Shown: piece after piece, positions 42,715 to 61,694 of the stretch | How positions within the stretch are numbered: the stretch's first letter is position 1 | How the letters are laid out: each line of letters begins with the position of its first letter | NCBI GenBank assembly: GCA_000701625.1 | Contig: JNJK01000005.1 | Span: 186,001 to 250,000 of the forward strand | Length of the DNA stretch: 64,000 nt | Reading direction: 5' to 3' | Source of the DNA: Lachnospiraceae bacterium MC2017 | GTDB taxonomy: Bacteria > Bacillota > Clostridia > Lachnospirales > Lachnospiraceae | Made by a program: the position numbers and the translations under genes | Notes under the pieces: model-generated | The model's input: only the letters and a program-made list of their open reading frames with translations | Database searches by the model: none | Told to the model about the DNA's origin: nothing

Positions 42715-44067
42715 TCACTTTTTGCACAATTGTTCAGAATGAAATCTAACGATCATTCCTATAAATAAACCAATCAAAGCAGGAACTCCCCAGCCTATAC
42801 CCAGATCGTAAAGCGGCAAAAATTTTGACACTGCGTGTACAATTATATCAGCATGAATACCTGTTTGAACGTCATCAGGCAGTGTACGGAGCAGATCAAA
42901 AAATGCTGCAACCGAAGTAAATGCCGTTACTGATATGAATACTCGTTTATCATACTGTATCACTCCTCCAAAAAGACACATAAGTATGAGAGTGATCGCC
43001 AGAGGATACAGGAACATCAATACCGGAACTGCATATGAGATCAACACAGTAAGTCCTACATTTGAAATTACAAGCGGCAGGATAGTGAAAATAACTGCCC
43101 ATTTTTTATAAGTAATTTTCGGAAAAAGCTGTTCAAAAGTCTCAGCACAACTTGTTACCAGACCGATCGCAGTTTTCAGGCATGCCAAAAATACCATTAT
43201 CGCCAAAAGCAGCTGACCTGTTTTTCCGAAATAATGAGCTGCAATCTGTGCGAGTGCGATACCACCGTTATCGCTGATATCAAGTACTCCACGGCTCTGT
43301 GCACCCATAAGTGTGATCAGCGCATAGATCGTTCCCATTAAAATGCAGCAGAATACGCCGGCTTTCAATGTACATTTAGCAATAGCCGCAGGTTCACTGA
43401 CACCGAGTTCTCTGACTACGCGGATGATGATTATACCAAATGCGATCGACGCAAGTGCATCCATTGTATTGTAACCTTCGAGAAATCCATTAAAAAATGT
43501 ATTATCAGCAATTGACGGATCCGGTACTACATTCCCCATCATTCCCATCGGACGAACGAAAGCCAATAGAAGCAAAAGTCCCAAAAATGTCAGGAAAACC
43601 GGATTAATAACCTTTCCGACCCACATCAGTATTTTTCCCGGCTTCAGAGAGAATATGAGTACCAGTGCAAAGAAAAACACAGAAAATGCAGGCAGCCATA
43701 AAGATGAGCCCGACGCAGCAAGCATGGGTTCTATTCCTACCGTAAATGAAGTTGTGGCGCATCTCGGTATCGCAAAGAAAGGTCCTATCGTCAGGTAAAG
43801 CGCACAAGTAAAAAAGAGTGACCAGCCTTTACCAACACGGCTAGCCATGTCAAAAAGACCTTCGCTCCGTGAGCTTCCCATAGCGGCCACACCCAGGAGC
43901 GGCAGCCCCACTCCGGTCGCAATAAAACCTGCAGCTGCGATCAATGCCTTTGATCCTGCGAGCTGTCCCATATGCACTGGGAATATCAGGTTTCCGGCTC
44001 CGAAAAAGAGCCCAAATAACATACTGGCAACAGCCAGTGTTTCTTTAAGTGTCAGTTTTGTTTTCAT
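42715..44067 (-). CDS. brnQ: Branched-chain amino acid transporter BrnQ
   Basis: The 450-residue protein has twelve hydrophobic segments and the family opening FGLFFGAGNLIFPVHMGQ. Further signatures are ISDNGGIALAQIAAHYFGKTGQ and CLKTAIGLVTSCAETF. It is a sodium- or proton-coupled importer of Leu/Ile/Val. ATG 44067 is the likely start, with GAAGGA 13 bases ahead; a TTG seven codons earlier is possible. It is a single gene with a terminator-bounded upstream region. Confidence 0.94.
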   Translation of the reverse strand: MKTKLTLKETLAVASMLFGLFFGAGNLIFPVHMGQLAGSKALIAAAGFIATGVGLPLLGVAAMGSSRSEGLFDMASRVGKGWSLFFTCALYLTIGPFFAIPRCATTSFTVGIEPMLAASGSSLWLPAFSVFFFALVLIFSLKPGKILMWVGKVINPVFLTFLGLLLLLAFVRPMGMMGNVVPDPSIADNTFFNGFLEGYNTMDALASIAFGIIIIRVVRELGVSEPAAIAKCTLKAGVFCCILMGTIYALITLMGAQSRGVLDISDNGGIALAQIAAHYFGKTGQLLLAIMVFLACLKTAIGLVTSCAETFEQLFPKITYKKWAVIFTILPLVISNVGLTVLISYAVPVLMFLYPLAITLILMCLFGGVIQYDKRVFISVTAFTSVAAFFDLLRTLPDDVQTGIHADIIVHAVSKFLPLYDLGIGWGVPALIGLFIGMIVRFHSEQLCKK

Positions 44068-44181
44068 AGCTAAAAATGTATCCTTCAAATCATTACTCTT
44101 TTAAGAGCATAATATATCTATTATGATGTTCCACATCATTTTGGTCAATACCCTAAAACAAAGTTCCAACACTGACACAAA

Positions 44182-44220
44182 AGAGCTTTACTGGCATAAA
44201 AACCAGTAAAGCTCTTTTTC
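44182..44220. terminator. Terminator of the PTS/phosphatase operon
   Basis: AAGAGCTTTACTGG pairs perfectly (14 bp) with CCAGTAAAGCTCTT. The T-rich flank serves the minus strand; the plus-strand flank is also T-rich. Confidence 0.92.
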
Positions 44221-44260
44221 GCATTTCACTATACCCTTATTCGGATCCCGGCAACTGATG

Positions 44261-45886
44261 TCAACTACTCAAAACCGTAACAACTATTGGAGATAATCCT
44301 GCCTGTGTGATCTTCTCGAGCTCAACTTCCATCACTTCCTGTCCGGCTGTGACACTTTCTCCTTCTTTGACTAATGGCTTTAGTCCCTTTCCGTTAAGCG
44401 TAAATGTATCGATACCCACTAAAAGGATAATCTCCGTATTATCATCGATCCGGAATGTCATTGCATGATTTGTATCCGCGATTTCAGAGATCACCCCATC
44501 ACAGGGAGCAAAAATATGTCCATTCTCCGGCATGATACCCATGCATTTTCCGATTACACCTGATGAAAACATTATATCCGGGATACAGTTCATCGGAACA
44601 GTTTCTCCGTCCGCAGCAGCTGCGATCGACAGATTACTCCTGCCGTGCCCTCCGGTCTCCATCAAAGCATCGCCCGCATGAACAACTTTTGATTTTTTCC
44701 TGCTAAGACGTGCAAAAGCTGCCGAACGCCAAAATGACACCTGTTCATCAGAAAGAGATGCTTCGATATTCAGCCCCTTATCACCATAGAAAATATTTGT
44801 AATTACAAATCCACCTAAATAGCTGATAACGATCGCTATCAGATAACAAAGAACACTGATAAAACGACCACCACGACCGGCTGTCATCATAAACGCACCC
44901 ATAAGGCCGGATGGTCCCCAACCTGTCGAAGCAACCCCTGTAAGCATGATAAATGCTCCTCCGAAACCCGCTCCTAGTCCTGCTGTAAGAAAAGGCATAC
45001 CTAACGGCAGAGTTACTCCGTAGATCAGCGGTTCTCCAACACCCATTATTCCCGCAGGCAGTGCACCTGCGATAACAGAACAAAAATCGTTGTTGCCGGT
45101 TTTCCTGGCTTTTTTCCAAAGTGCCAGTGCCGCACCAACCTGTCCTGCTCCTGCCATGGCAAGTGCAGGATAAAGTGTTACATAACCAAGTTCCGACAAC
45201 TGAACACTATAAAGAGCAACCAGACCATGATGCATACCTGTAGCCACCAACGGCAAAAAACATGCTGACGCAAGATAACCTGAGACAGCCTTGATCAAAA
45301 TATTCTGTGATAGACATGCCCTGCCAAAAATCCAGACAATTCCCTCTGAAATATATCCGTATAATGGCATTACAAATATGATATACGGGATCACACACAC
45401 AACCATAGTGATGACCGGTGTAAAGATCACATCAACGGAACGAGGCATTATCGTACGGACAGCCCTTTCAACATTGGCTATCAGCATCGCTCCAACGATA
45501 ACCGCCATGATGCCGCCTTTCCCGCTTCGAAGGATCGAATCCAGCGGAACCTCATTATTATAAAGTCCAAGGATTTCCGCTATCACATTTATCCCTTCCA
45601 TAGATGTGATCATTCCCAGCATACCACCAAGGATAGGCGTACCTCCAAACCTCTCAGATGCACGGTACCCCGCCCAGGCAGTCAAAAAAGTCATGACAGA
45701 TGAATTTATCAATGACAAGATCTGGTAAATAAACATCCACACATCATTTTCTGCGTAATTCGGAACCATTTGCGCTATGAGCGACGCAAAACCACCGCAA
45801 AGACCTGCACAAATAATACCCGGCAACAGTGGAATAAAGATCTCTCCTATAGTTTTCAGGTCATTTTTTAGCCTGTTCATTCTCAT
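44261..45886 (-). CDS. PTS EIIC-EIIA protein lacking EIIB and the phospho-histidine
   Basis: The 541-residue protein begins directly with a glucose/beta-glucoside-type EIIC (KTIGEIFIPLLPGIICAGL, TGMHHGLVALYSVQL, GVGEPLIYGVTLPL) and ends with a Crr-like EIIA (about residues 415-541). No EIIB domain with its Cys is present. In EIIA the first active-site histidine is kept (ADTNHAM, His 474), but the phosphorylated one fifteen residues later is leucine (Leu 489 in ILLVGIDTF, where Crr has VHFGID). Sugar phosphorylation by the usual route looks impossible. ATG 45886 follows GGAGGGG. It lies 31 bp after an RsbU-like phosphatase gene. Confidence 0.88.
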   Translation of the reverse strand: MRMNRLKNDLKTIGEIFIPLLPGIICAGLCGGFASLIAQMVPNYAENDVWMFIYQILSLINSSVMTFLTAWAGYRASERFGGTPILGGMLGMITSMEGINVIAEILGLYNNEVPLDSILRSGKGGIMAVIVGAMLIANVERAVRTIMPRSVDVIFTPVITMVVCVIPYIIFVMPLYGYISEGIVWIFGRACLSQNILIKAVSGYLASACFLPLVATGMHHGLVALYSVQLSELGYVTLYPALAMAGAGQVGAALALWKKARKTGNNDFCSVIAGALPAGIMGVGEPLIYGVTLPLGMPFLTAGLGAGFGGAFIMLTGVASTGWGPSGLMGAFMMTAGRGGRFISVLCYLIAIVISYLGGFVITNIFYGDKGLNIEASLSDEQVSFWRSAAFARLSRKKSKVVHAGDALMETGGHGRSNLSIAAAADGETVPMNCIPDIMFSSGVIGKCMGIMPENGHIFAPCDGVISEIADTNHAMTFRIDDNTEIILLVGIDTFTLNGKGLKPLVKEGESVTAGQEVMEVELEKITQAGLSPIVVTVLSS

Positions 45887-45917
45887 TATCAACCCCTCCG
45901 GCAAGACTATGGTTTTC

Positions 45918-47192
45918 TTACGCTGATAATCCGTCTGTTCCGTAGTAACATAAGCACAGCATGGTGATATCGTCAAACTGTTCTGCCCCATCCACAAAGC
46001 GATTTATGTCATCCATAACATTTGTCAGGGTCTTTTCCGGAAGTGCATCCGGTTCACTGTTAAGTGCAGCCAGCATCCGTTCAGTACCGTAAAGCTCATT
46101 ATCAGCGTTAGTAGCTTCCGCAACACCGTCCGTATATACAAAAAAGCTGTCTCCCGGATTCATCTGGAATTCATGCTGTCTGAACTTTAATCCTTCCATA
46201 ATTCCGACTGGCATCGAATGCCTGTAGACTATCAATTCATAACTGCCGTCAGCTCTTCGGACTGCAGGATGTTCATGACCGGCATTCGCAACGATTCCCT
46301 TACCTGTAGAAATCTCAAGCACCGCAACCCACATTGTCACGAAAAATCCCTCATCATTTCCTTCACAAAGCTGATTATTCACGTGTTCCAAAGCTTCCGA
46401 TACACTATTACCGTTCTGAAGACCGGACTTAATAAGAACACGACTAACCATCATGAGCAGTGCCGCAGGAACTCCCTTTCCAGATACATCCGCCATTACA
46501 AAACCGATGTGGTCATGATCTATCATAAAGAAATCGTAAAAGTCTCCTCCAACTTCTTTCGCAGGAGTCATGCTGGCATATAAACGGAATTCTTTTCTAT
46601 CAGGGAATGGTGGAAAAAGTCTTGGAAGTTGGCTTTGCTGGATCTTGCTCGCCATCTCAAGTTCCGCGCCGATCCTCTCTTTTTCAGCAGTAACTCTTTT
46701 TATCTGGTCGATATAAAGTGCTGTACGGAGCGACTGCTTTGCAAAAGCTTCCGCAAGAACCTCAATCTCATCTCCTGTTCTGTACACATCTTCCATCTTG
46801 AATTGTCTGTGCCTGATACCAAGAGATGCTATCCGTCTCGTGATGGTATTCAGCGGATCGATGATCCTCCTCGAAATGGAATACGCCGAGATTAGACCAG
46901 CTGCTACTATCAACACTACCAGGATAAGAAGTATATTTCGCGCATGGAACATTTTTTTACGAAATGAAGTCATAGCACCACTTTGGATTTCTTCATACTT
47001 ATCCTGTAGTCCGTTTTCCTCATACACCTGTCTTTGCATCTCGTAGGTGTCATCGACCAGTTTTTCTACCCTGCTCGTCTGATAAAAAAAGACTGCAGTA
47101 TATGCCACGATGATAAGTACGATCGTAACCAGCATCATGCTAAATATTTTATGCCGGATACCACCTCTAAGAATCCCCCTTTGATCTCCCAT
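45918..47192 (-). CDS. Membrane PP2C (RsbU/SpoIIE-like) phosphatase with HAMP
   Basis: The 424-residue protein has two membrane segments (about residues 15-37 and 86-106) around a short extracellular region, then HAMP (SRRIIDPLNTITRRIASLG), a coiled helix (ELEMASKIQQSQLP) and a SpoIIE-type phosphatase domain with metal aspartates (KEVGGDFYDFF, MADVSGKGVPAAL, VYTDGVAEA, QFDDITML). Such enzymes dephosphorylate anti-anti-sigma (STAS) proteins in partner-switching systems. No STAS gene is adjacent. It is operonic with the EIIC-EIIA protein. Confidence 0.93.
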   Translation of the reverse strand: MGDQRGILRGGIRHKIFSMMLVTIVLIIVAYTAVFFYQTSRVEKLVDDTYEMQRQVYEENGLQDKYEEIQSGAMTSFRKKMFHARNILLILVVLIVAAGLISAYSISRRIIDPLNTITRRIASLGIRHRQFKMEDVYRTGDEIEVLAEAFAKQSLRTALYIDQIKRVTAEKERIGAELEMASKIQQSQLPRLFPPFPDRKEFRLYASMTPAKEVGGDFYDFFMIDHDHIGFVMADVSGKGVPAALLMMVSRVLIKSGLQNGNSVSEALEHVNNQLCEGNDEGFFVTMWVAVLEISTGKGIVANAGHEHPAVRRADGSYELIVYRHSMPVGIMEGLKFRQHEFQMNPGDSFFVYTDGVAEATNADNELYGTERMLAALNSEPDALPEKTLTNVMDDINRFVDGAEQFDDITMLCLCYYGTDGLSA

Positions 47193-47365
47193 CGATACTC
47201 CTCCGCTTTCACAGCGATTTCGCTAGTTTTATATATACACTACATTTATTTTTCGACATTTTTTTATCATATATATAGTTAATACAACTAATTTCTTTTT
47301 AAGTATAAGCGCAGAAATAGCGCCTGCGGATTTGCAGGCGCCTGTGTTTAGTTTTTTACCAACGA

Positions 47366-48346
47366 TCATTCCTGATCAAATGTGATCGAATCGATTATTC
47401 CTGAAAGAGCATCTGACACAGCTATGTTCTGCGCTTCATCATTTCCGTTATGTCCTGAAATCTCAAATATAAGTGCTCCATCCATATAATCTCTGCCGAG
47501 AGCGGTCGCGTATGCGCCGGAACCATCTTTGTCCGGATCGAGAATAGCCCAATATCCGGTAACAGCCTCATTACCAAGGAAAGGTGCTTCAGAGTATGTT
47601 GTCTTATCAGAACCCCATGACTCACCAAGCTTCTTTATAGCAGCTTCTGCCTTATCCTCAACAGTGTAAGTCACTGTGATCATATTTGTACCGGCAGATT
47701 CACCTGTATAAACTATAAAAACATTACCGTTTTCTCTATTTATCTCGAAATCATTTGCATTGTACTTGATGCTCCAGCCATTGGCATCGTGATAAACACT
47801 CTTCTCCGGTCCATTCACATAGTTCTCTGCGCTGAAATTGTCCGCATCTACATCATCAAGTCTCTCAAATACCAGCTCTAGTCCATCGACAAATGAACCT
47901 GTGATCCTGTCTTCTTCAAAAGATGTAATCTTTAATGTGTCTTCAACAGAATCCGAACCTCCGAAACTAAAGGAAACTTCGCCATCTCCCTGAGTGCAGT
48001 CAAAAGGTACGCCTGTTCCTGTTGTGCCATCCTCGGTATAACCATAATCAGCTCCGTTAAATACGTAGAAATAAGTCTTATCAGGATTTTCAGCTTCCTT
48101 TGCATAATTAACGTACACACCCTTTGTGAAATAAACCTCTCCGGCTGCGGTTTGCATGATGTCATCTTCGATCGAATCCAAAACTTCCGATGCGCCTGCT
48201 GATAAAGACACATCTTCCTCAGCGCTCTCTGTCGTCTGGGCTGCGGCCTCTGTTGCAGTTCCTGCCGGCGCACTCTCTTTTCCGCATCCTGACATAACTG
48301 TCAGAGCAACCACACCTGTAACCATGATCACCATAAATTTTTTCAT
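47366..48346 (-). CDS. Lipoprotein of unknown function
   Basis: The 326-residue protein has a signal peptide ending in the lipobox VMSGC and an Ala/Thr/Glu linker. Two repeated-looking beta domains follow (VYFTKGVYVNYAKEAENPDKTYFYVF, then GWSIKYNANDFEINRENGNVF). ATG 48346 follows AGAGGGG; the longer frame lacks a site. It is not recognised beyond being an extracytoplasmic lipoprotein. A short GC-rich hairpin (GCGCCTGC/GCAGGCGC) lies after it at 47317-47342. Confidence 0.78.
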   Translation of the reverse strand: MKKFMVIMVTGVVALTVMSGCGKESAPAGTATEAAAQTTESAEEDVSLSAGASEVLDSIEDDIMQTAAGEVYFTKGVYVNYAKEAENPDKTYFYVFNGADYGYTEDGTTGTGVPFDCTQGDGEVSFSFGGSDSVEDTLKITSFEEDRITGSFVDGLELVFERLDDVDADNFSAENYVNGPEKSVYHDANGWSIKYNANDFEINRENGNVFIVYTGESAGTNMITVTYTVEDKAEAAIKKLGESWGSDKTTYSEAPFLGNEAVTGYWAILDPDKDGSGAYATALGRDYMDGALIFEISGHNGNDEAQNIAVSDALSGIIDSITFDQE

Positions 48347-48534
48347 TTTGTTTACCCCTCTGCTAATTTTTGATTTTATCAGTACTTTGGACTGAACAAA
48401 AATTGAATCAGTCTCTTGTTTTCCTTGGGACAAACAAATAATACCAACATGATCATCACAGAATTGTCACACGATAAAAATTGTGTCATATCGTTTTTAT
48501 CCCGACCAAATTTAATTGTTTCTACTCATATTCT

Positions 48535-48566
48535 AAAAAACGAGAATGACACCATCTGTCATTCCC
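48535..48566 (-). terminator. Terminator of the MATE-NRPS-symporter operon
   Basis: GAATGACA / TGTCATTC stem followed on the minus strand by CTCGTTTTTTAG. The terminator and about 30 bases beyond it (48511-48573) are repeated almost exactly at 55131-55193. Confidence 0.85.
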
Positions 48567-48586
48567 GCTAAAAACTGCAATTCGTG

Positions 48587-50233
48587 TTATGAATTAAATT
48601 TACTCATATCGACAAGACCTTCTTTTTTAGCAATGATCGTAGATACAACTGCATCGCCTGTGACGTTGGTACAGGTCTGCATCATTCCAACTAACGGGTA
48701 CAGACCCATGACAAGACTTACTGCCTCTGCCGGTACGCCGATCTGCGGTATCAAAAGTGCGATGCAGACCAGATTTCCACCAGGAACTCCGGGGCTTCCA
48801 ACAGAAAGAACCATTATCGCAATAAACAAGGACAACAGCACGCTGGGAGTAACCGGTATCTGAAAGATCTTTGCGCAGAATAAAGCTGAGATCAAAAGCG
48901 AAATACAGCTTCCATCCATATTTATAGTAGCTCCAAGCGGCAGTGAAAACGAATAAATCTTTGGTGAAATTCCTAATTTATCGCAGCACTCGATAGATGT
49001 AGGAAGAGCCGCATTACTCGATGCACAGGTAAATGCAGATGCCATTGCAGGGTAATACTTCTTTAGGAACTTGTTCGGTGTCAGACCTGCAAACAATGCC
49101 AATAAGATGATATACACACAGATCATCAAAACATCGCCGAAATAAATAACCGGTGCCCATACAAATACATTCAAGAGTGTCTCAAAATTCATTGCGATCA
49201 TCATCTTCGCCATAGAGCAAAAGACAATTAAAGGAATTAACTTTACCATCACAGACGTGATCTTAGAAAACACATCATTTAAAATGCCAAGCATTTTTTT
49301 AACTTCGGGGATTTTTCCTGCTAAAGAAGCCGCAGCTATGCCAAGTACCACAGCCATAAATATCAGCTGAAGCATATCTGACTTCTGAAATGGCGTAATG
49401 ATATCACTTGGTACGATACCTACAATAGTATCCTTGATGGAAATAGTCACTCCTTCAGCCTTCTGCAGGGTTGCCTCTGCCGTCTCTTCAGAAACTGCCA
49501 CTGCCAGATCAGTACTTCCTATCGGGAAAAGCTGATATGTAAAATATCCAACACAGATCGCGATCATAGAAGTCAGGAGGTAAAAGGCAACTATCCGGGT
49601 CGCAATCCTTCCAAGAGCCTTTAGATCCGTAAAGTCAGCAATACTGTAAGCCACCGAGAAAAATACCAGAGGCGCCACGATCAATTTAAGGAAATTTAAA
49701 AACATGGTATAAACCGGCGTAATAAGCAGCGTGCTGATATTTTTTCCAACTTCTGCAGGCAAAAAATTGTGGATCAGAAATCCTGTCAAAATACCGAGTA
49801 TCAGCGCAGCGATAGTATATATCAGGTTTGTGTAGGTAGATTTTTTTACAGGAAAAGTAACTATAGTCTTCCCTTTATTTCTACGTACCAAAAGAGTATC
49901 AGCAAATAGCTTATCATAAAGCTTCTTGATAACATCTCCTGCGTCTTCATCAAGTTCATCAACCTTAAGCCTCTCATAAATATCAGAAACCGCAAAAGCA
50001 TCACAACCTGCCTTTATCTGAACTGACAGATTTCCAAAAAGCCCCCTGATCTCTATCACAATATCACTACCTACAGGAGCAGATTCCAAAATCTTAGCCA
50101 ATACCTCCTCTGTGGTCAAAAGAGTCTGAACGATCTGTTTCGAATTAATGTTCCGTTCCTTCAAAGAATCCTGAACAAACTTCACTCCACTTGCTATTAC
50201 ACCACTATCTGCTTTCAGTACCTTCTTATCCAT
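48587..50233 (-). CDS. Dicarboxylate/amino-acid symporter with N-terminal GHKL-like domain
   Basis: The 548-residue protein has two parts. Residues about 135-545 are an SDF (DctA/GltP) symporter with the re-entrant loop serines TCASSNAALPTSIECC, the NMDGS motif and GSPGVPGG. Residues 1-130 are a soluble domain (TLLTTEEVLAKILESAPVG, IVIEIRGLFGNLSVQIKAG, VIKKLYDKLFADTLLVRRNKGKT in outline) resembling a degenerate HATPase_c/anti-sigma-kinase fold. Ordinary symporters lack it. ATG 50233 follows AAGGA correctly spaced; the ATG at 50239 is too close. It is the last gene of the operon, four to eleven bases after the NRPS-like gene. Confidence 0.85.
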   Translation of the reverse strand: MDKKVLKADSGVIASGVKFVQDSLKERNINSKQIVQTLLTTEEVLAKILESAPVGSDIVIEIRGLFGNLSVQIKAGCDAFAVSDIYERLKVDELDEDAGDVIKKLYDKLFADTLLVRRNKGKTIVTFPVKKSTYTNLIYTIAALILGILTGFLIHNFLPAEVGKNISTLLITPVYTMFLNFLKLIVAPLVFFSVAYSIADFTDLKALGRIATRIVAFYLLTSMIAICVGYFTYQLFPIGSTDLAVAVSEETAEATLQKAEGVTISIKDTIVGIVPSDIITPFQKSDMLQLIFMAVVLGIAAASLAGKIPEVKKMLGILNDVFSKITSVMVKLIPLIVFCSMAKMMIAMNFETLLNVFVWAPVIYFGDVLMICVYIILLALFAGLTPNKFLKKYYPAMASAFTCASSNAALPTSIECCDKLGISPKIYSFSLPLGATINMDGSCISLLISALFCAKIFQIPVTPSVLLSLFIAIMVLSVGSPGVPGGNLVCIALLIPQIGVPAEAVSLVMGLYPLVGMMQTCTNVTGDAVVSTIIAKKEGLVDMSKFNS

Positions 50234-50243
50234 ATGCATTTCC

Positions 50244-53192
50244 TTATAAATAATGCACCCCTACGCTCTTTATAGACAACGAATGATCCTTTAATCTAAC
50301 CAACTCCGAGCAGACTTTGCAAAAAAGCTTTGCGAAAGCCTCCGCTGTAGTTCTTTCATAGACTCCGGCATCGTAATCAACCAAAACCCCGAAAGCATTT
50401 TCGCTGTCAAGTATCTCCAAATCCATTTTGTTGTCACATGCTGTATTTGGTGACACCAGTTCAGATATCTCTTTTACTATTTCGTCATTTTCCTTAAAAT
50501 CATAAATATCTCCTTGAAAAATCATGCAAAGAAGATCATTTCCATAATATCCGCCGCATTCTTCCCAGTACGATACATGACCATGGGCGATACCATCCCT
50601 TACCTGTGCTGCAACTTCATTTAAAAAACTCTCTATAGACAGGTCTTCCTCAAGCGTAAATGTCACCGGCAGATCCAGCAAAAAACATCCGACCGAATCC
50701 ATCTTTCGCAGATCATTTCTTCCGTTCCAGTTCCATGTAAATGCCACATTTCCGTTTTCACTATCTAAAGAGAGCGCGATCGCCGCTGCCGCGATATATA
50801 GCCCGTTCCTACCAAGCTCGTACATATCACTGATCCGCTGCACTTCTTCTCTCTTAAACGGAAACTTCAGGAAAAACTTGTCATCCACATTCTCGCGATC
50901 ATTATGATCAGGCGTTGGATACGTAACACAGTCTGTCCTGTCATAGCGTTCTCTAAAATAATCCATTTCCTTGCCAAACGCATCCGACTCCCTGAACAAT
51001 TCTTCATCAACACAGATTTCTAAATACTCATCCTTAACCACGGGCTCATTTCTGTATATCCTGCCTATATCTTCCAAAAGTAAGTGATATGATCCCCCAG
51101 CGCATATCGCGTGGCATACATCTATCAAACATACCTTTGAGTCCGGTGTTTCTATCAATCTGCATCGAAACAGCGGAGTATTGTCAAAGCGAAACGGCTT
51201 TACAAATTCCGCGGCGGCTATTTCAAGTTCTTCGTTATTCATCTTTTCCGGAACGATCTTCGACATGACACATTTATCAAATCTCTGCAGAAAACCGGAT
51301 TCAGTTTCTTCTATAGTGCTGGTTATCGACGGATGCAGGAGCATCGCTTTTTCAATAGCCTCCGCTAACTTATTGAGATCAACCGAAGTATCAAGTAAAA
51401 ATCTTTCCGCTAGATTTAATACCGAAGAATCCGGATTCTCTTTTTGAACACATATCAGATAATTCTGGGTAGCATTTACATGTACATAAGGAACCTCTTT
51501 AGCAGGTACCGGTATGTCTGATCTTTCTTGCTTCCTAATCAGCGTCTCTATCTCTTTCGCAGTCCTTCCTTCATATATATCCTGCGCGTTTAATCCCTTA
51601 AGACGGCATTTCAATATCACGAGCATCACCTTGATCGAGTCTCCGCCAAGGTCAAAGAAATCATCATTTATGCCGACTTTTCTATTACATTGAAGAACTG
51701 TCTCAAACGCTTCACATATAGCCCTCTGTACATCATTTTCAGGCTCTGCATATGTACCATGCGTCCCTACAGCAGAGGGTTCCGGCAATCTAAGCTTATC
51801 AACTTTTCCATTTGCATTAAGCGGGATCTCCGTGATCCTCACAAAGCACTGCGGTATCATATACTCCGGAATATATGAACTGAGCAGCTTAAAAGATTTT
51901 CCCGGAGAAAGCTCTATGTCTCCCTTATAATATGCACAGAGATACGACGTGCCATTATCTCCCTTAAACGCCTTTACAGCGCAAAACTCTGTGCCAAATG
52001 CTTTATTTACAGCATTTTCAACTTCTGATAATTCTACGCGGTTTCCGTTGATCTTTACCATTTCACCGATCCGGCCCCAAACGGTATATCTGCCCTCTTT
52101 ATCCAGTGAAGCATAATCTGCGCTCTTAAAGAACCTCTTTCCGCGGATCGTTACAAATGCTCGTTCATTTTCCTTTTGCAGGTCATGATATCCTCTAAAG
52201 AACGGAAGATATACGCACAGCTCACCTTCATCAGCTTCGTTCCTGTCTTCATCTATAAGCACTATCTCACTGTTCTTTGTAGGGTAGCCTATTGGCGTGT
52301 TGCTGTATGCACGGTCTATCTTAAAATGGCAGGCAGCGTATGCAAATTCACTAGAACCGTAGATATTTATTACATCAAAATCACCTCCGGCAATACCGGA
52401 TACGATCTCCCCTCCCGTATAGCAGACACGCATTGACTTTATTCCAAGCTGCTGCAGTACTTTTAAAAATGTAGGTGTCATAAATGTTGAATCGATCCTG
52501 TGCTCATTTAAATATGAACTGAGTCTGACCGGGTCCATTGTGATCTCCCATGAAATGGCGTGGATCGTACATCCAAACCCGAGAACCCCCACAGTTATAT
52601 AAACTCCACCCACAAAAGATTCCGGAATAACGTGTCCAAATCTCAATATTTCTTTTCGTTTTCCTTCTCCCTCTCCATCAGGATACACATGTTCATACAG
52701 GAAACCTTTACCTAACCCCTCCCACATGAGGTCATATACACCATATTCTTCAGCTGCCCCCTTAGGTGCACCGCTGCTGCCGGAAGTATAGATATAAAAT
52801 GCAAGGTCATGAGGATCCGGCTCAATAAACTCCGGACATTCCGGAAGCTTCATAGCTTCTTCCCATTCTGCCTCTCTCATTACCAGTGCGCAGCCGCAGT
52901 CTTTTATCACATAATCTATTCGCTCTTTCCCCATCAGGTCTTCAAGCGCGACCCACGCTGCACCAGCCATCATTACACCGATGCGAGTAGCTATATACTC
53001 CATTCCCTTGGGATAATATATCCCAACTGTATCCTCTTTACCGATGCCTCTGTCCTGTAGATAGCGGTTGACCCTCATAGCACAGTTAAAAAGATCCCTG
53101 TAGGTCGTACTCCGCGCACCATCCCGATCCACCACCGCAACACGGTCAGGATACTGCTCCGCATTCTTTTTAAGTCTTTCTATAAAATCCAT
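50244..53192 (-). CDS. NRPS-like A-PCP-C protein
   Basis: The 982-residue protein has an adenylation domain (about 1-470: YIYTSGSSGAPKG at 133-145, NIYGSSEFAYA, GRIGEMVKINGNRVELSEVE at 373-392, NGKVDK lysine 463). A carrier domain follows (FFDLGGDSIKV, phosphopantetheine Ser 519), then a condensation-type domain (about 570-982). The condensation motif HHxxxDG reads CHAICAG (His 694 kept, first His and Asp lost). There is no thioesterase or reductase. The order A-PCP-C suggests an activated amino or aryl acid transferred to a free acceptor. It lies 11 bp after the MATE gene and directly before the symporter gene. Confidence 0.9.
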   Translation of the reverse strand: MDFIERLKKNAEQYPDRVAVVDRDGARSTTYRDLFNCAMRVNRYLQDRGIGKEDTVGIYYPKGMEYIATRIGVMMAGAAWVALEDLMGKERIDYVIKDCGCALVMREAEWEEAMKLPECPEFIEPDPHDLAFYIYTSGSSGAPKGAAEEYGVYDLMWEGLGKGFLYEHVYPDGEGEGKRKEILRFGHVIPESFVGGVYITVGVLGFGCTIHAISWEITMDPVRLSSYLNEHRIDSTFMTPTFLKVLQQLGIKSMRVCYTGGEIVSGIAGGDFDVINIYGSSEFAYAACHFKIDRAYSNTPIGYPTKNSEIVLIDEDRNEADEGELCVYLPFFRGYHDLQKENERAFVTIRGKRFFKSADYASLDKEGRYTVWGRIGEMVKINGNRVELSEVENAVNKAFGTEFCAVKAFKGDNGTSYLCAYYKGDIELSPGKSFKLLSSYIPEYMIPQCFVRITEIPLNANGKVDKLRLPEPSAVGTHGTYAEPENDVQRAICEAFETVLQCNRKVGINDDFFDLGGDSIKVMLVILKCRLKGLNAQDIYEGRTAKEIETLIRKQERSDIPVPAKEVPYVHVNATQNYLICVQKENPDSSVLNLAERFLLDTSVDLNKLAEAIEKAMLLHPSITSTIEETESGFLQRFDKCVMSKIVPEKMNNEELEIAAAEFVKPFRFDNTPLFRCRLIETPDSKVCLIDVCHAICAGGSYHLLLEDIGRIYRNEPVVKDEYLEICVDEELFRESDAFGKEMDYFRERYDRTDCVTYPTPDHNDRENVDDKFFLKFPFKREEVQRISDMYELGRNGLYIAAAAIALSLDSENGNVAFTWNWNGRNDLRKMDSVGCFLLDLPVTFTLEEDLSIESFLNEVAAQVRDGIAHGHVSYWEECGGYYGNDLLCMIFQGDIYDFKENDEIVKEISELVSPNTACDNKMDLEILDSENAFGVLVDYDAGVYERTTAEAFAKLFCKVCSELVRLKDHSLSIKSVGVHYL

Positions 53193-53203
53193 AATTTTTC
53201 CCT

Positions 53204-54925
53204 TTAGTCTATCTCAAATGAATTTCGGTTAAAGCTGAGTGACGTGAAGTTAAGTTTATTATTCGTAATATTTTCGATAAGGCATGAAACAACAAACGAT
53301 CTGAGCGATCCAATCTCGTTATCCGGATCAGTTAGATCATAAAAGACCCCATTATCCTTGGTTATTATATGCACTCCCTTTCCTGCTTCTACTATGCACT
53401 CCGCAAGAACCTTTTTCCCGGGATTCAGATCATATATGAGCATAAACAGTTCTTCGAAAAGTATCATGACCCTGTTTACAGTCGTATCACTTTTTCCATC
53501 ATCCCTCAGCGTCTGACATATCCGGTCTCTTGTGGAAATGACCACCTCAGGTGTGACTTCAAATTCATACATCCAGATGTGGCGCTCTTTTTCCAGAGGG
53601 GAGATGAAAAGGGCATAGCTATCTTTATCATACCGGATGCAGATATAGAGATATGACAGCAGATACCCAAGCCCCGGAGCGATCGTCAGTCCGACAAACA
53701 TACCAAAAACTCCCCCGATCTGTCCGCCGATAACAGCTAACGGAGCCGCGACTGCCGCATCTCTTAATGCACATATCAATACACCCAATGGAATTTTGTC
53801 TATGAGGATATAATAAGAAGAGTCAAGATACATCCTGCTCGTGAAAACCAGCGTAAGAGACATCATTCTCAGCCCCGTCACAGCTATACCCACAGTCTGC
53901 GGATCTGTTATACCGAGGAACCGCACGATCAGCGGGGCACCCAAAATGATCATAGCTGTAACAATTGCGCTCTCGATCACTGCTGTATTTCTCGCGAGCT
54001 TCCATACTTCACTCACCCCCGGATATGTTTTCTCTCCGAGATACACGCTTACTATCGGAGTGAGTGCCACCCCGACTCCGTCAAAAGCAAACTGTATTTC
54101 TTTGATAAAAGCCACAACAGAGATCAATATCATCATACTGCTGCCGAAACTCCAGGATATGTAACGGCTCAATACAAATGTAAATATCACCAGGAATAAA
54201 AATGTGCTTGAATCCACAATACTGTATTCGATAATGCCCTTAAGCTTCGCATATGAAAAATAAAGATTAAATCGAAGTGAATTTTTCTTCTTAAAAAAGT
54301 GGATTAATAATATGAGCATGGATGCTGCACGTGTAAAAAAAGATGCGAAACTCAAGCCTCCGATTCCCATTACCGGAGCCAGCAAAATCGAAAAGATGAT
54401 ATTGCCTATAGCAGATGACGCAGTTGCCAGGGTACTCAGGAACTCATCCCCATCAGCAAAGACCATACCGGAAAGCAGTGTTTCAAAAGGAGCGATAAGG
54501 GCAACATAGTTTATCCAAAACAAATACTTCCTTGCCTGTATCAGTCCCTCACCCTCAGCTCCGATAAAATCAAGGTATATTTTTTCGCTGGAAAGCAGCA
54601 GGACAAACAGAAAGACCCCAGTAACGATCGTTCCGAGAACCCCTACACCAAATGTACGGTCAGCTTCTTTTCTGTCAAATGCACCAACCTCTTTTGAATA
54701 AATGATTGGTACGCCCAGCGAAAACATCAGTGCAAAAAAGCTCGCCAGAGAGTAAAACGGCAAAGCCAGATTTACGCCTATGACAGCATCCGCTCCCAGC
54801 ATGATACCCGCGATGAACGAATCCGACATCACCACAAATGCCAGAAAAAACGAAGTCACTATTCCTCCTGCCAGCATGGAATAAAATTTTGACGATATAA
54901 AAGTCTGTTTAGTTAACACGTTCAT
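53204..54925 (-). CDS. MATE-family transporter with C-terminal GHKL-like domain
   Basis: The 573-residue protein has a twelve-helix MATE exporter core over about residues 1-450 (VVMSDSFIAGIMLGADAVIGVNLALPFY and so on). The C-terminal ~120 residues are soluble and resemble a HATPase_c_2 domain: VNRVMILFEELFMLIYDLNP (N-box-like), HIITKDNGVFYDLTD (D-x-G box) and a final beta strand pair. MATE proteins normally end after the helices. ATG 54925 follows AAGGGGAGA. It is the first gene of the operon with the NRPS-like protein and the symporter. Confidence 0.88.
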   Translation of the reverse strand: MNVLTKQTFISSKFYSMLAGGIVTSFFLAFVVMSDSFIAGIMLGADAVIGVNLALPFYSLASFFALMFSLGVPIIYSKEVGAFDRKEADRTFGVGVLGTIVTGVFLFVLLLSSEKIYLDFIGAEGEGLIQARKYLFWINYVALIAPFETLLSGMVFADGDEFLSTLATASSAIGNIIFSILLAPVMGIGGLSFASFFTRAASMLILLIHFFKKKNSLRFNLYFSYAKLKGIIEYSIVDSSTFLFLVIFTFVLSRYISWSFGSSMMILISVVAFIKEIQFAFDGVGVALTPIVSVYLGEKTYPGVSEVWKLARNTAVIESAIVTAMIILGAPLIVRFLGITDPQTVGIAVTGLRMMSLTLVFTSRMYLDSSYYILIDKIPLGVLICALRDAAVAAPLAVIGGQIGGVFGMFVGLTIAPGLGYLLSYLYICIRYDKDSYALFISPLEKERHIWMYEFEVTPEVVISTRDRICQTLRDDGKSDTTVNRVMILFEELFMLIYDLNPGKKVLAECIVEAGKGVHIITKDNGVFYDLTDPDNEIGSLRSFVVSCLIENITNNKLNFTSLSFNRNSFEID

Positions 54926-54948
54926 TACTTTATGTATTCTCCCCTTGT

Positions 54949-54985
54949 GTAACAAGTTATGCCTGGCTCGATAAAGCCTTGTTAC
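54949..54985 (-). promoter_or_regulatory. Hairpin in the MATE operon leader
   Basis: GTAACAAG and CTTGTTAC (8 bp, perfect) enclose an inner GGCT/AGCC stem, just upstream of the MATE ribosome site (AAGGGGAG). It has no T tail, so it may tune translation or be an operator. The 54926-55497 gap also holds decayed gene fragments and a terminator copy (separate entries). Confidence 0.45.
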
Positions 54986-55050
54986 TCTATTATCTACATC
55001 GGTATTTTTTCTTAAAAATGTACATTGCATATTCTTGTTTTCAAAAAAAT

Positions 55051-55104
55051 GACTATAGCCTCAGGCTTTCCAAGGTCATGAAAAACTCCGAATCTATTTA
55101 TCTG
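55051..55104 (+). pseudogene. Fragment of a second chemoreceptor gene
   Basis: In the plus frame it reads [13 protein letters not shown], matching [13 protein letters not shown] of the intact chemoreceptor at 55819-55872. The DNA agrees at 24 of 28 bases over the best part. There is no start, stop or continuation, so it is a remnant of a duplicated or replaced receptor gene. Confidence 0.6.
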
Positions 55105-55154
55105 TTTATAGCATTTTCATTCCGAACATATTTGATTGTTTCTACTCATATTCT

Positions 55155-55186
55155 AAAAAAGGGAATGACATCTTCTGTCATTCCCG
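55155..55186 (-). terminator. Orphan terminator, copy of the one at 48535
   Basis: GGGAATGACA / TGTCATTCCC stem with TTTTTTAG after it on the minus strand. The surrounding 63 bases (55131-55193) duplicate 48511-48573. No intact gene ends here, only a gene remnant. Confidence 0.8.
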
Positions 55187-55194
55187 CTAAAAAA

Positions 55195-55323
55195 TTAATA
55201 TCCTCTCTTTTTATCTACCACATATTTCAGCGGTAACCCATTGACATAGTTTTCCAGATCTTCACAGAACATCTCTACATTTTTATCTACCGTGTATTCC
55301 AGCGGAATGACTGCTCTGAACAT
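55195..55323 (-). pseudogene. C-terminal remnant of an unknown gene
   Basis: A 42-codon frame (MFRAVIPLEYTVDKNVEMFC, then EDLENYVNGLPLKYVVDKK) ends just before the orphan terminator. The open frame extends upstream without a start to a TGA near 55363, and neighbouring frames also look coding. It therefore looks like the 3' end of a decayed gene that once used that terminator. The family is not recognised. Confidence 0.45.
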
Positions 55324-55412
55324 TTTCCACTTCTGGATATTCCTACTATAGTCTTGAGATCAAAGGCCTTCGCTCTTTTCGCAATCATCATTGTCAAAAT
55401 ACGCAATTAATA

Positions 55413-55440
55413 TACATTTTATCAAAAAACTGCCGAATAA
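55413..55440 (+). promoter_or_regulatory. Sigma-28 (SigD)-like promoter of the chemoreceptor gene
   Basis: TACA at 55413, 15 bases, then GCCGAATAA at 55432, close to the motility-sigma consensus TAAA-N15-GCCGATAT. It precedes a chemoreceptor gene, the typical target of that sigma factor. Confidence 0.5.
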
Positions 55441-55497
55441 TATATTGGAAACCCGTATACCTCAACCTTTTTTAATCATTTTTAAGGGGGAACTACC

Positions 55498-57210
55498 ATG
55501 AATATAAAAAATCTTGTAAAAGTGGATAAAAAGAAAATACATGACATGAATGTTGAATCTAAATTCAGTTCAACTTTCAAACAGATTATCGTGATGTTCT
55601 GCGCTGCAGTTGCCATGCTTACGATCACTATAGTCTCATCAGGCATATCTGTAAGCAGGCTTTATAACACCTACTACACCATGAACACTATACAGGGTGA
55701 TATAAGAATAGATATGCAGGCTTTATCAAAGGCCTTTCTCTGGGCGCTGTCATCTCCGGATGATGCTATCAGAAAAGAACAGCTTCAAAAAGCTATGGAC
55801 AAATTTGGTGAGTTTGAAGATAATCTCAGCAACCTATCTAAAGTCATGAAAAATTCTGACTCTATTTCATTGGTATCAAAAGACCTGAAAACTGTCGAAG
55901 CAAATGGAAAAGTTCTCGGTGATATGTTCAGCAATAATGCAAGTTCTGAGGATTTATTCTATTACTTTAACGATACTCTGTATCCATCTATAGATGCAGC
56001 TGTAAAAGATTTTAAGGCTGTGTCCTCCGCTTCTACCGACGAAGCCGCGAAAGCATATAAAACTTCTCTCGTTTTCTGCATCATTATGTCTGTCATTACT
56101 CTTATTGTCGTTATATTGGTAATGCTTTACATAGTTGATGTAAAAATCGCACTGTCTGAGTCGATACTTAAGCCTGTCGAAGAGATTTCCAAAGCTGCCG
56201 ATAAAATGGCCACGGGTAATCTCCATATAAATATCGACTATGAATCAGAGGATGAACTCGGACGACTGGCAAAAGACCTTAATTCCTCAACTTCCGTGAC
56301 AGAACAGATCATAAATGATATCCGAGAAACACTTTTACTCCTTTCCAACGGAGATTTTACACACGGAACTCTTAAGCCTGAACTATACAAAAACGATTTT
56401 GCACAAATTAGCGAAGCTCTGACAAACATTACTGATTCTCTTTCTGATACATTGTCACAGGTTCGTGATTCTTCTAATCATGTTTCAGATGGTGCAAATG
56501 GTATGAGCACGGCAGCCTCCGATCTGGCTGAGGGCACTGCAAATCAGGCGGCAGCTGTTCAGGAACTCAACGCTTCTGTCTCTACGATAACTTCTCAGAC
56601 CAAAAACATGGCTGAAATAGCCGAAAGATCAGAAAAAATGGCTGACAAGGTTAGAGAAGATGCAGATGCCAGCGCACGAAAGATGAGCCTCGTTACAGAA
56701 GCTATGGTCCGCATCACCGAAGCCTCTACCGAGATCGAGCAGGTTACAAATACTATCGAATCCATAGCCAAGCAAACTCAGCTCCTCGCTCTTAACGCTT
56801 CTATAGAAGCTGCGCGCGCCGGAGAATCAGGACGCGGCTTTGCCGTAGTTGCTGATGAGATCAGCACTCTCGCCAGTCAGAGTACTGACGCCGCTAAGAA
56901 TACTTATCAGCTCATTCAGGATACTATGAGCGAGATAAAGAACGGAAATGCTGTTGTCGGCGAAACAACCGACGCCCTGCAGCATATGCAGGAATCTGTT
57001 GAATCTATCACGACCATGATAGTAGAAACCGGTAATATGGCAAAACATCAGGCAGCCAGCATGACCGAGATCTCAGCAGGAATCGAACAGATATCCACCG
57101 TTGTACAAAGTAATTCCGATACAGCCCAGCAATCAAATGATCTATCCCAGTCACTAACCGAACAGGCTGAAAATCTGATTGGAATAATTAATAACTTTAA
57201 TCTGAAATAA
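55498..57210 (+). CDS. Methyl-accepting chemotaxis protein
   Basis: The 570-residue protein has membrane segments at about 33-55 and 190-212 enclosing a four-helix-bundle sensor ([19 protein letters not shown]). HAMP follows (about 213-265, [20 protein letters not shown]), then a long signalling coil with the conserved hairpin tip [20 protein letters not shown]. It senses a small molecule outside the cell and controls CheA. AAGGGGGA is the ribosome site. It is a single gene with a sigma-28-like promoter and a hairpin downstream. Cluster che/fla genes are not in the window. Confidence 0.96.
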
Positions 57211-57235
57211 ATTCTAAATAAGATCAGCTACGCAA

Positions 57236-57262
57236 GATCCCCGCCGGAAACCGGCGGGGATC
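57236..57262. terminator. GC-rich hairpin after the chemoreceptor gene
   Basis: GATCCCCGCCGG and CCGGCGGGGATC form a perfect 12-bp stem with an AAA loop. A T-run is not immediate on either strand, yet the location between convergent genes fits a terminator. Confidence 0.7.
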
Positions 57263-57304
57263 TGCTGATTTGGAATTCTTATGGGATTTTTATCTACACA
57301 CAGA

Positions 57305-60300
57305 TTACTTAAGAGTAACCTTTGTTGTGTACTTCTTGCCATTGATCTCTGCAGATACTTTGAGAGTACCCTTCTTTGCACAGGTAACACTTACATGTTT
57401 ACCGTCCTTAGATACAGAAATCTTTGCGTCTTTTAACTTATTTGTACTCCATACAGCTGTGCTGATGTCTGTGCCCTTAAGTTCAAGTGCAACAGCTTCA
57501 CTAACCTTACCAGCTGCCTTCTTCTCCATTTCAGGAGCCTGGATCCTGAGGGACTTTGTGACATCCTTACCCTCAACCTTGTAGCCGATCACTACTTCAG
57601 AAGCACCCTTCTTAAATGTGATCTTGCCATTCTTACTGATCTTTACTCCCTTTCCGCTGACTACCTTAAATGTTCCCTTATCACCCTTAAGTACTACCTT
57701 CTTTGCACCAAAGTTAATAGTTACATTACCTGACTCAGCAGATGCAAGAGTAGTTGTATCACCAGGTGCTGCGATCTGGTCAGCTGTAGAAGATTTTCCG
57801 TTACCTGCTGATGCCTTTGCTGCAGGCTCTGATGCAGGCTTTGTTGTGTCTTCCGGTTTTGCAGGAGCCGGCTGATCCGGTGTCTCTGGTGCCGGTGTTT
57901 CAGGTTTCGGAGCATCAGGATTCGGTGTATCCGGTGTCTCTGGTGCCGGCTTGTCCGGTGTCTCTGGTGCCGGCTTGTCCGGTGTCTCTGGTGCCGGCTT
58001 GTCCGGTGTCTCTGGTGCCGGTGTTTCAGGTGTCGGAGCATCAGGAGTCGGTGTCTCCGGTGTCGGCTTGTCCGGGGTCGGATCATCCGGTGTTGTCGGT
58101 GTCGGATCATCCGATGTCGGATCATCCGGAGTTACAGGAGTCGGATCATCCGGGGTAGGCTGATCCGGTGTCTCTGGTGTCGGATCTTCAGGTATTTCAG
58201 GTGAAGGATCCGGTGTCAGATCGCCTGTGTGTCCTTCGCCTTCAAATACGTAAGAGTCAAGTTTCATCAGCTCAGTGCCTTCACCCTTAAATACAAGGAA
58301 CACATTTCTCTTTCCGGTAATGTTTGTGATATCTGTAGAAAGTTCAGTATACTCCTCTGTACCTGCCGGAACTTCCAATGTTCCTAAGAGGCTTCCTTCA
58401 GGGCTGTCTACACGTACTTCAATGCTTCCACCCTTTTCAGACTTTACTCTTGCCTTAAATGTATCAGCGCCGGCTTCACCAAAATCTGCACCAGCAACAC
58501 TTGTCCAGTCACCGTCATCAAGCTTTACAAGTTCTCTGTGGAAATCATCGATATTAGCAACTTTGATGCCCTTATTCCAAGCAATTGTCTCAGCTTCGAT
58601 CTTCTTATATGGATCAAGAGATTCAAGCTGGCTGATTCCTTCGTAAGTTCCCTTTACAGGCTTGATCATACCATCTTCATCAAGTTCAAGAGCATCGATA
58701 TGAGTTGAGCGATAGCCCTGTGCCTTGTTATATTCCTTTGCAACAGTCTGAGCATGATAGATAAAGTAACTCTTACCTCTGAATACGAATGTTGCGTGAT
58801 GGTTATTTCCACCTACTCCGAACCATGTCTGCGGATTATCGAAAATCTCACCTACATACTCAAAGGGTCCCATCGGACTGTCGCTAGTCATATACGCGAT
58901 GTTTCCTGTTCCCGGATATCCAGCCTTATGAGGTCCGATGAAGTTGGAGCAATAGCTGTAGTAGTATTTATCTCCATACTTAAAGATACCGGAATCCTCA
59001 AACATCGCAGGAGCATCGATTTCTACTGCTTCACCCTCGATGCTTATCATGTCATCACCGAGCTTTGCAACTCTTGCTGTATGCGGGTTGTTATTCTCAC
59101 CATTCCTTCCATCATTCGGAACACCGCCGCCAAAGTAGATGTAAGCAGATCCGTCATCATCTACGAGTACAGCCGGATCAAAACACCATGTTACGCCTGC
59201 ACACCCAGGTGTAGCACGTGTGATGAGAGCCTTTTTGATAGGATCCCTCCAGGGACCTATAGGTGTATCTCCCTCTATAACGCCAATACCGCTGGCATCG
59301 TTTGCGAAATACAGGAAGAACTTATCCTTGCCGTTGATCTTTTTATGAGCGATAGCAGGAGCCCATGAATGATTTGCCCACTCTTTAGCTGCGCCATCTT
59401 TGCCTGCGACTTTGATCTCTCCATGGTCTGTCCAGTTAACCATATCAGATGATGAGATAACTCTAAGAGTTTTGATATAACCAAAGCTGTTGTCCTTCAG
59501 ACTTCCGTCTGTTTTATACTCATAATCATCAGATGTCATATAAACATATACTCTGTCATTGTAAACAAGAGCATATGGATCTGCGCCGAGTTCCTGAGTT
59601 ACGAGCGGGTTAGAATAACCAAGCTGCTTTGCAATTGCGCCTGTGTTAAGGAACTTGAGCTTTACAACCTTTACTGCATCCTTAACATCATAGAATACAG
59701 TCTTGCCGCCGTCCACGTGAGCAGAAAGAAGATTAAACTTGCCCTCAACATCCTTTCTTACATATCCGCTCATCTTGAGCTTAAGTGTTGCGAAAAGTCC
59801 GTCCTCAGCATCAAATGCAACATCATCACCGTCTACGTCGATCACGAGCTTGCCGTCTTCGACAGCAAATTTAGCATCTCCACTGATAGCATCCTCATTG
59901 AACTCAACGTCATCAACATTAACCTTTTCAGGAAGAGCTAATGTAAGTTTAAGGTTCTTGTAACCATTCTTCTCAAGCTTATCGAGTTTGATCTTTGCTT
60001 CTGCTTCCTGGTTGATAACACCAAGGATCTCATCGGGAACTTCAAGCTCTGCTTTAATATTGCTCTCTCTGTAGTCCTTATTTCCTTCATTTACATCCTT
60101 TGAAAGCTCAACGATAGAAAGATCATCAACTATGATATCTAAGAGATCGGCTTCTGTTGCCTGTTGTGCGTTCTTATATGGTGTTTCAATGTAAACATTT
60201 ACAATATCTCTGTCATCATTCTCAGAGAATGTATACTGACCGGAAAGATTTACCCACTCACCCTTCGGTACTGCTTTTGCGTCGATATTGGTAAAGCTCT

Positions 60301-61315: not shown

Positions 61316-61627
61316 ATATCATTCTCCCTTACAAAAAACTTTTGACGAAAGAGTTTTTATAATTTCACACGCATTCTGATACCCTACAGTACAGGACTGG
61401 TGATTTTTTATAAAAACCTGTCTCATCTGTATATATTTTTGCACGAATAGGAGAACAATCCATCCCTTTAAAGTATATTAATTAGCCACTTTTATCCTTA
61501 AAACTATACTTTTGATGATTTTTAAAGCAATTAACACAATACAACTTTGCAATTATTTGAATTTATATAGCCATTTTTGCCCGATATATGTATATCAGTT
61601 CATTTTAATTGTGCAACTTGTTTCCAT

Positions 61628-61656
61628 TTATAGAAAATCCTTATAAGTTAAAAAAT
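61628..61656. repeat. Conserved palindromic post-terminator element, copy 3
   Basis: TTATAGAAAATCCTTATAAG followed by TTAAAAAATG repeats the pattern of 30716 and 34022, again directly after a terminator and upstream of a minus-strand gene (GH43). The 61316-61627 gap shows no gene; it should hold the GH43 promoter. Confidence 0.55.
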
Positions 61657-61686
61657 GCACTGCGTGCATTGAATGCAACGCAGTGC
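61650..61686 (-). terminator. Terminator of the alkD unit
   Basis: On the minus strand GCACTGCGT pairs with ACGCAGTGC, with an inner TGCATT/AATGCA stem, followed by ATTTTTTAAC. Confidence 0.9.
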
Positions 61687-61694
61687 GGAGAATC

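Follow-up and report, generated by a model that had tools for sequence, protein, structure and literature searches.

Why should an exporter and an importer encoded on either side of one biosynthetic gene both carry an extra domain resembling an anti-sigma-factor kinase? The question is raised by a 64,000-nucleotide stretch of the Lachnospiraceae bacterium MC2017 genome (assembly GCA_000701625.1, contig JNJK01000005.1, positions 186,001 to 250,000), hereafter the window. Open reading frames (ORFs) on its minus strand form a tight operon of a MATE-family exporter (53204–54925), a nonribosomal peptide synthetase (NRPS)-like protein with adenylation (A), peptidyl carrier protein (PCP) and condensation (C) domains (50244–53192), and an SDF-family symporter (48587–50239). 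Coordinates without a locus number are window positions, and L numbers denote fetched loci of relatives. We propose, at a probability of roughly one half, that the two transporters are an exporter and an importer bearing pseudo-kinase RsbW-like docking domains that act in a partner switch, with the A-PCP-C enzyme making or modifying the transported molecule.

The stop codon of the MATE gene lies 11 bp from the ATG of the NRPS-like gene, whose own stop is followed by the symporter start after 4 bp (ATG at 50239) or 10 bp (ATG at 50233). Ribosome-binding-like sequences precede all three starts: AAGGGGAG at the MATE ATG (54925), AAAGGG at the NRPS ATG and AAGGA at the symporter start. The 573-residue MATE protein contains MatE domains (Pfam, 6e-16), confirming its identity as a MATE transporter; the 982-residue A-PCP-C protein matches AMP-binding (4e-46), PP-binding (7.8e-7) and Condensation (8.6e-24); and the 550-residue symporter, of the dicarboxylate/amino-acid type, matches SDF over residues 142–538 (3.4e-92). 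The extra domains occupy the C-terminus of the MATE protein (approximately residues 445–573; 53207–53593) and the N-terminus of the symporter (approximately residues 1–135; 49835–50239). Downstream on the same strand come a lipoprotein-like ORF and then a gene for a SpoIIE-type phosphatase (45918–47192; Pfam SpoIIE, 1.7e-48), which starts about 1.4 kb past the end of the symporter gene. The original prediction had described both the short-gapped, minus-strand operon and an RsbU-like phosphatase at this distance, and both were borne out.

It had also likened the extra domains to HATPase_c_2 and anti-sigma kinases. Pfam HATPase_c_2 (PF13581) gives no match to either window copy at E 1; we established their homology via relatives and predicted folds, and the likeness was upheld. 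By hhalign, a 27-row profile of the symporter domain aligned with a 57-row profile of the MATE domain at a probability of 98.1 (E = 9e-14) and with the genome's own RsbW at 96.1, against 0.1–2.1 for five control families (STAS, PCP, SpoIIE, C and A). The AlphaFold2 model of the symporter domain scored 84.8 by predicted local distance difference test (pLDDT) and 0.78 by predicted template-modelling score, and in a Foldseek search of the PDB with this model ranks 1–18 were all anti-sigma kinases (RsbW, SpoIIAB and UsfX). On this model, the N-terminal domain has an RsbW/SpoIIAB-like fold. Records titled Treponema, Solobacterium, Oribacterium and Butyrivibrio contain fused SDF proteins as well; one SDF fusion (L064) scores 23.7 bits against HATPase_c_2, below the Pfam cut-off.

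The MATE protein is one of 75 MATE fusions from fetched loci, whose C-terminal domains we described with our own hidden Markov model. Two N-box glutamates are kept in 73/75 and 74/75 of them, and a terminal asparagine in 74/75. One member (L042) passes HATPase_c_2 outright, with 34.9 bits over a cut-off of 27.4 (E = 1.7e-8), and another (L040) falls below it with 13.1 bits. Searching the PDB with a combined 17-row profile that included two free RsbW proteins gave RsbW (6m36) at 6e-11, SpoIIAB at about 1e-4 and the Rv1364c-type structure 3ke6 at 0.015. Against the whole genome, this profile had three strong matches, the free RsbW and both window domains, all themselves rows of the profile, followed by a next match at 0.006; the MATE domain matched at 1e-30, with its own row likewise inside the profile. 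Among PDB matches to the weak MATE-domain model, 15 of the first 16 were RsbW, SpoIIAB or UsfX chains, none at E 0.001 or better. On the profiles and models together, we regard both extra domains as RsbW-like.

An RsbW-type ATP site comprises the glutamate and asparagine of the N box, a DxG motif and the glycines of the G2 box, a set that is incomplete in both window copies. The MATE copy keeps the glutamate and DxG, with leucine in place of the asparagine and arginine at the G2 position. The symporter copy keeps the glutamate, with lysine for the asparagine and alanine for the aspartate, and has lost both DxG and the G2 box. Because these residues are gone, the window domains are best seen as pseudo-kinases and, judged by their motifs, look like docking domains; that control is exerted by phosphorylation of these domains or by their binding of a nucleotide, as had been suggested, is unlikely here, the asparagine being absent from both and the aspartate from the symporter copy. 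Across the relatives, SDF fusions have lost the asparagine in 28/29 cases (L045 keeps it) and the aspartate in all 29. By eye, six copies borne on ATP-binding cassette (ABC) ATPases lack the asparagine at the aligned position, with one a residue later in L075 and L358. The MATE fusions retain more of the site, with the asparagine in 49/75 and the aspartate in 66/75.

To what are these domains linked? Within a radius of 8 kb, SpoIIE, STAS or free RsbW genes lay near 33/75 MATE fusions and near 0/45 plain MATEs from the same taxonomic family (Fisher, 7e-9; 34/75 if any other GHKL protein is taken in), a comparison in which the fusion search profile (A2) may favour kin near SpoIIE, since that gene neighbours the window and L042, which make up two of its three rows, at most four scored candidates per genome entered the fusion set, the controls came partly from genomes that possibly lack switch genes, and 8/40 control and 10/69 fetched MATE-fusion loci were shorter than 12 kb, some contigs ending within 8 kb. 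SpoIIE alone was found near 25/75 fusions versus 0/45 plain MATEs, on the same strand in 22/25 and with a gap below 200 bp in 9. Several relatives encode complete modules: SpoIIE, RsbW, MATE fusion, STAS and SDF fusion in L042, and RsbW, SpoIIE, MATE fusion and STAS in L305, L310 and L299. A 7.6-kb run in L358, which belongs to the same order but a different family, comprises a STAS gene, a SpoIIE-RsbW fusion, a GHKL-SDF fusion and binding protein-permease-ABC-GHKL. In L359 a MATE fusion, SpoIIE, RsbW and an ABC-GHKL protein are spread over about 13 kb with other genes interspersed. The link to partner switching is, with these modules, stronger than originally proposed. SpoIIE and STAS genes follow the closest kin of the window MATE protein (L192, 45% identity), and neither follows the next (L251). 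The free RsbW proteins of relatives' loci have the N-box asparagine and a GG(L/M)G box, and their STAS proteins a serine at the SSAGLR site or variants of it.

Among MATE fusions, loss of the asparagine goes with proximity to SpoIIE (18/26 without it, against 7/49 with it; p = 4e-6); we keep this association as a lead, as an independent-pairs test is unable to reach significance. The corresponding comparison with STAS was not significant (p = 0.11).

Any GHKL or switch partner occurs within 8 kb of 7/29 fused symporters, compared with 1/73 plain SDF proteins (p = 0.0005), or 6/27 when L358 and L360, which were fetched for their GHKL matches, are set aside (p = 0.0014). A MATE fusion is nearby in 3/29 (the window, L040 and L042) versus 0/73 (p = 0.02), and another GHKL fusion, of the amino-acid ABC type, in 4/29 (L070, L075, L076 and L358) versus 0/73 (p = 0.006). 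Such ABC ATPases with a C-terminal RsbW-like domain were seen at L075:3-2861, L076:11593-12687, L070:6192-7316 and L232:1155-2249, the ATPase part of L232 being assigned by eye, and again at L358:5653-8385, L359:3467-4546 and L361:4510-5613; in some, the ATPase forms a single polypeptide with the binding protein and the permease. Other combinations of the same domains also turned up. STAS at the N-terminus is combined with an RsbW-like domain at the C-terminus in proteins at L247:14726-16306 and in L335, L347 and L357, and STAS-first proteins of about 390 residues in L194 and L210 have no RsbW part and by eye resemble a STAS-phosphotransferase fusion. SpoIIE-RsbW-like kinase fusions lie at L211:3343-5934 and L298:2137-4194 and in L349 and L351–L355, several of them next to a STAS gene; L352 and L358 are one and the same place.

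The original prediction also expected the three operon genes to be conserved together. In the strict form they were not: among the fetched loci the exact three-gene layout is found only in the window. Pairs do recur, a MATE fusion with an SDF fusion in two other loci and a MATE fusion with an NRPS gene in 13/75, the window included.

Are the remaining parts of a switch available in the genome itself? It has three SpoIIE matches, two STAS matches (a 98-residue RsbV-like protein and one inside a 559-residue frame) and one RsbW above the Pfam cut-off, which adjoins the RsbV-like STAS. These two, a STAS protein with a phosphorylatable serine and an RsbW kinase, are neighbours on another contig, C3, where a trio at L316:8504-9925 consists of the canonical RsbW (143 residues), the RsbV-like STAS and a 230-residue ORF whose GHKL match is weak and N-less. 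The window phosphatase, of the PPM type with an N-terminal membrane part, retains the metal-binding motifs of SpoIIE/RsbU proteins (GGDFY, DVSGKG and DDITML); a HAMP match was weak (E = 0.095, below cut-off). With the STAS/RsbW pair on contig C3 and the phosphatase in the window, all switch parts thus exist in the genome.

The middle gene of the operon suggests what might be transported. The A-PCP-C protein has LgrA, the linear gramicidin synthetase, as its best PDB sequence match, and contains an A core and the GGDS of the PCP, short of a full NRPS module. In its C domain CHAICAG replaces HHxxxDG, and activity of this domain is for that reason uncertain; 15 of 16 compared relatives keep the motif, and L221 has HHILIDH. 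The A domain has valine at the position that we take, after GrsA, to be Asp235 of alpha-amino-acid A domains. At this position 16 related A domains have ten valines, two isoleucines, one threonine, one alanine and two aspartates (L221 and L239). The valine hints that the substrate lacks a free alpha-amino group, as a keto, hydroxy or beta-amino acid would. The product may be an amino-acid-derived signal, as originally proposed. The symporter has glycine and glutamine at what are presumably the substrate positions Asp394 and Arg397 of GltPh transmembrane helix 8, as aligned by eye; other fused symporters vary at both. This fits a substrate other than aspartate, from which that of the symporter may differ.

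NRPS genes were found near 13/75 MATE fusions versus 1/45 plain MATEs (p = 0.016); on the tree they neighbour 8/11 rows of one MATE clade, outside which the window lies. From 20 SpoIIE-linked loci we listed 90 neighbours and scanned 64, finding five GH3 acyl-amido synthetases and four LPG_synthase_C matches. Across the whole set, GH3 genes lay near 9/75 MATE fusions versus 0/45 (p = 0.014) and LPG-synthase/formyl-transferase-like genes near 6/75 versus 0/45 (p = 0.08), both groups picked post hoc. Pooling the small-molecule enzymes gave 26/75 versus 1/45 (p = 1e-5), a value inflated because the GH3 and LPG-like groups were chosen after being sighted near SpoIIE-linked loci. No fused MATE was present in ten loci (L212–L221) whose A-PCP-C proteins are short or stand alone; among them, SpoIIE occurs in L217 and L219 and a STAS-ended protein in L216. 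By eye, carboxylesterase-family genes adjoin the A-PCP-C genes in L212–L214, and L213 also has amidohydrolase-like genes. A carboxylesterase-family gene (Pfam) likewise lies upstream of a fused symporter at L041:5907-7445. The MC2017 genome has a second NRPS on contig C17 (L319:1829-9058), of 2409 residues and C-A-PCP-C-A-PCP order.

The mechanism that we propose runs as follows. The membrane-bound phosphatase would sense a signal and dephosphorylate the RsbV-like STAS protein. Unphosphorylated STAS would dock on the GHKL domains of the MATE exporter and the symporter and alter transporter activity, instead of bringing about the release of a sigma factor, until the true RsbW kinase from contig C3, serving the operon in trans, re-phosphorylated STAS and reset the system. 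The A-PCP-C enzyme would make or modify a small molecule moved by both transporters. The N- and C-termini of SDF proteins, the C-terminus of MATE proteins and the ABC ATPase are cytosolic, on the same side as STAS and RsbW act. More tentatively, at somewhat less than even odds, this may be a class-wide post-translational switch, in which SpoIIE, RsbW and STAS act on transporters directly through RsbW-derived domains, often pseudo-kinases, on MATE, SDF and amino-acid ABC proteins; tagged pairs, co-encoded and partly accompanied by enzymes for small amides (NRPS, GH3 and aminoacyl-transferase types), would allow a small, diffusible molecule to be exported and taken up again under control of the switch.

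Several observations weigh against this proposal. The only RsbV-like STAS/RsbW pair found in the genome is on another contig, and the window holds the phosphatase only. Within 8 kb, switch genes are missing around 42/75 MATE fusions, and any GHKL or switch partner is missing around 22/29 symporter fusions. Taken singly, SpoIIE (3/29 versus 1/73, p = 0.07), STAS (2/29 versus 1/73, p = 0.19) and free RsbW (1/29 versus 0/73, p = 0.28) are not significantly associated with symporter fusions. Because 49/75 MATE fusions keep the N-box asparagine, a docking-only role fails for the MATE set as a whole. The link of asparagine loss to SpoIIE goes back to about four changes on the tree, the two features sharing ancestry, and cannot be treated as a set of independent events. 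The model of the MATE domain is weak (pLDDT 62), and a profile of symporter-type and two ABC-borne domains reached PDB RsbW at no better than E 0.087, its seven matches including unrelated proteins.

The main rival reverses the flow of information: the transporter would be the sensor, its GHKL domain holding or freeing STAS according to substrate flux and so informing the switch and, beyond it, a sigma factor or other client. Trigger transporters offer a known likeness, the same parts and fusions fit, and a sigma-70-type gene lies near L042 and L250. A sigma factor as the usual neighbour is not supported, however: with one ECF-like query from L042, which other types can escape, there was no enrichment (2/75 fused versus 1/45 plain MATEs; a Sigma70 region 2 match in 2/64 scanned neighbours). 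Two SpoIIE proteins scanned for domains have sensor-type parts of their own, dCache in L042 and 5TM-LYT in L358. We consider this direction unlikely, if still the one most worth keeping in mind beside our own. Rather less probable is a relic role, structural or self-regulatory, in which the domains would serve oligomerisation or stability without a STAS partner and their neighbours would reflect coincidence of lineage. The many MATE fusions that stand apart from switch genes and the erosion of the ATP site in part of the family would suit such relics, yet none of the 45 plain MATEs has switch neighbours, and a chance fusion is hard to invoke when three unrelated transporter types, MATE, SDF and ABC, carry the same domain.

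That the domains act as kinases or sense ATP strikes us as very improbable. The asparagine and aspartate kept through much of the MATE set, and the asparagine of a lone SDF fusion, suggest that some members may be able to bind ATP; the window copies, with leucine and lysine for the asparagine and a symporter domain devoid also of the aspartate and G2 glycines, speak against it, as do the near-universal losses among SDF fusions. Least credible of all is a standard NRPS-like cluster that includes a drug exporter, beside which the symporter and phosphatase would be unrelated neighbours. It could appeal to the ten loci whose A-PCP-C homologues are without MATE or SDF fusions, but it is at odds with gene gaps of 4–11 bp and with the excess of NRPS genes near MATE fusions.

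Partner switching is a textbook route for freeing sigma factors. The RsbV/RsbW/RsbU and SpoIIAA/SpoIIAB/SpoIIE systems of Bacillus draw on the same three families as the locus described here, where the phosphatase is in the window and STAS and RsbW are elsewhere, complete sets being found in some relatives; they differ in that here additional RsbW-like domains, lacking ATP-site residues in the window copies, sit on transporters and no sigma factor is enriched by the query used. A STAS protein acting on a transporter would have a parallel in MlaB bound to the ABC ATPase MlaF, which is not known to involve a GHKL domain, phosphatase or kinase. SulP/SLC26 anion transporters bear STAS domains (PMC8256260), and likewise place a domain from the sigma-regulation toolkit on a transporter; the fused partner there is STAS, and in the MATE, SDF and ABC proteins described here it is RsbW-like. 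Fused phosphatase-RsbW(-RsbV) proteins of the Rv1364c type are described in a passage of PMC12143880 that names no transporter; SpoIIE-RsbW fusions here occur beside fused transporters (L358, L211 and L298). Receptors of the 5TMR class are fused to SpoIIE-type phosphatases or NRAMP-like transporters (PMC11109136), and the L358 phosphatase shares their 5TM-LYT and SpoIIE build, while the passage concerned names no RsbW-like domain on a transporter. Relative to LgrA, the window protein consists of A, PCP and C only, with the Asp235 position and HHxxxDG altered. Among the matches listed in a literature search over titles and the starts of abstracts, with subscription journals mostly outside its coverage, we found no published account of RsbW-like domains on MATE, SDF or ABC transporters.

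Other features of the locus are less readily placed. The lipoprotein-like ORF between the symporter and phosphatase genes (47366–48433, minus strand) has a lipobox-like start by eye and no Pfam or NCBIfam match above cut-off, and we assign it to no family. Upstream of the MATE gene, a consensus scan found a terminator-like hairpin with a T-run (55161–55185, minus strand), which sits between upstream promoter-like sites and the gene and is possibly its attenuator. No Rfam family reached its gathering score in 44000–62000, giving no sign of a riboswitch ahead of the operon, and a defence system was set aside as five window proteins had no PADLOC match at E 0.001.

If our proposal is true, partner switching would have a new output, and a layer of control would lie between a membrane phosphatase and the passage of a metabolite both out of and into the cell. 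Judging by record titles, isolates from rumen and gut are among the named relatives of these bacteria. The proposal would also account for additional domains in many annotated transporters and offer a way in to the unidentified products of NRPS and GH3 enzymes.

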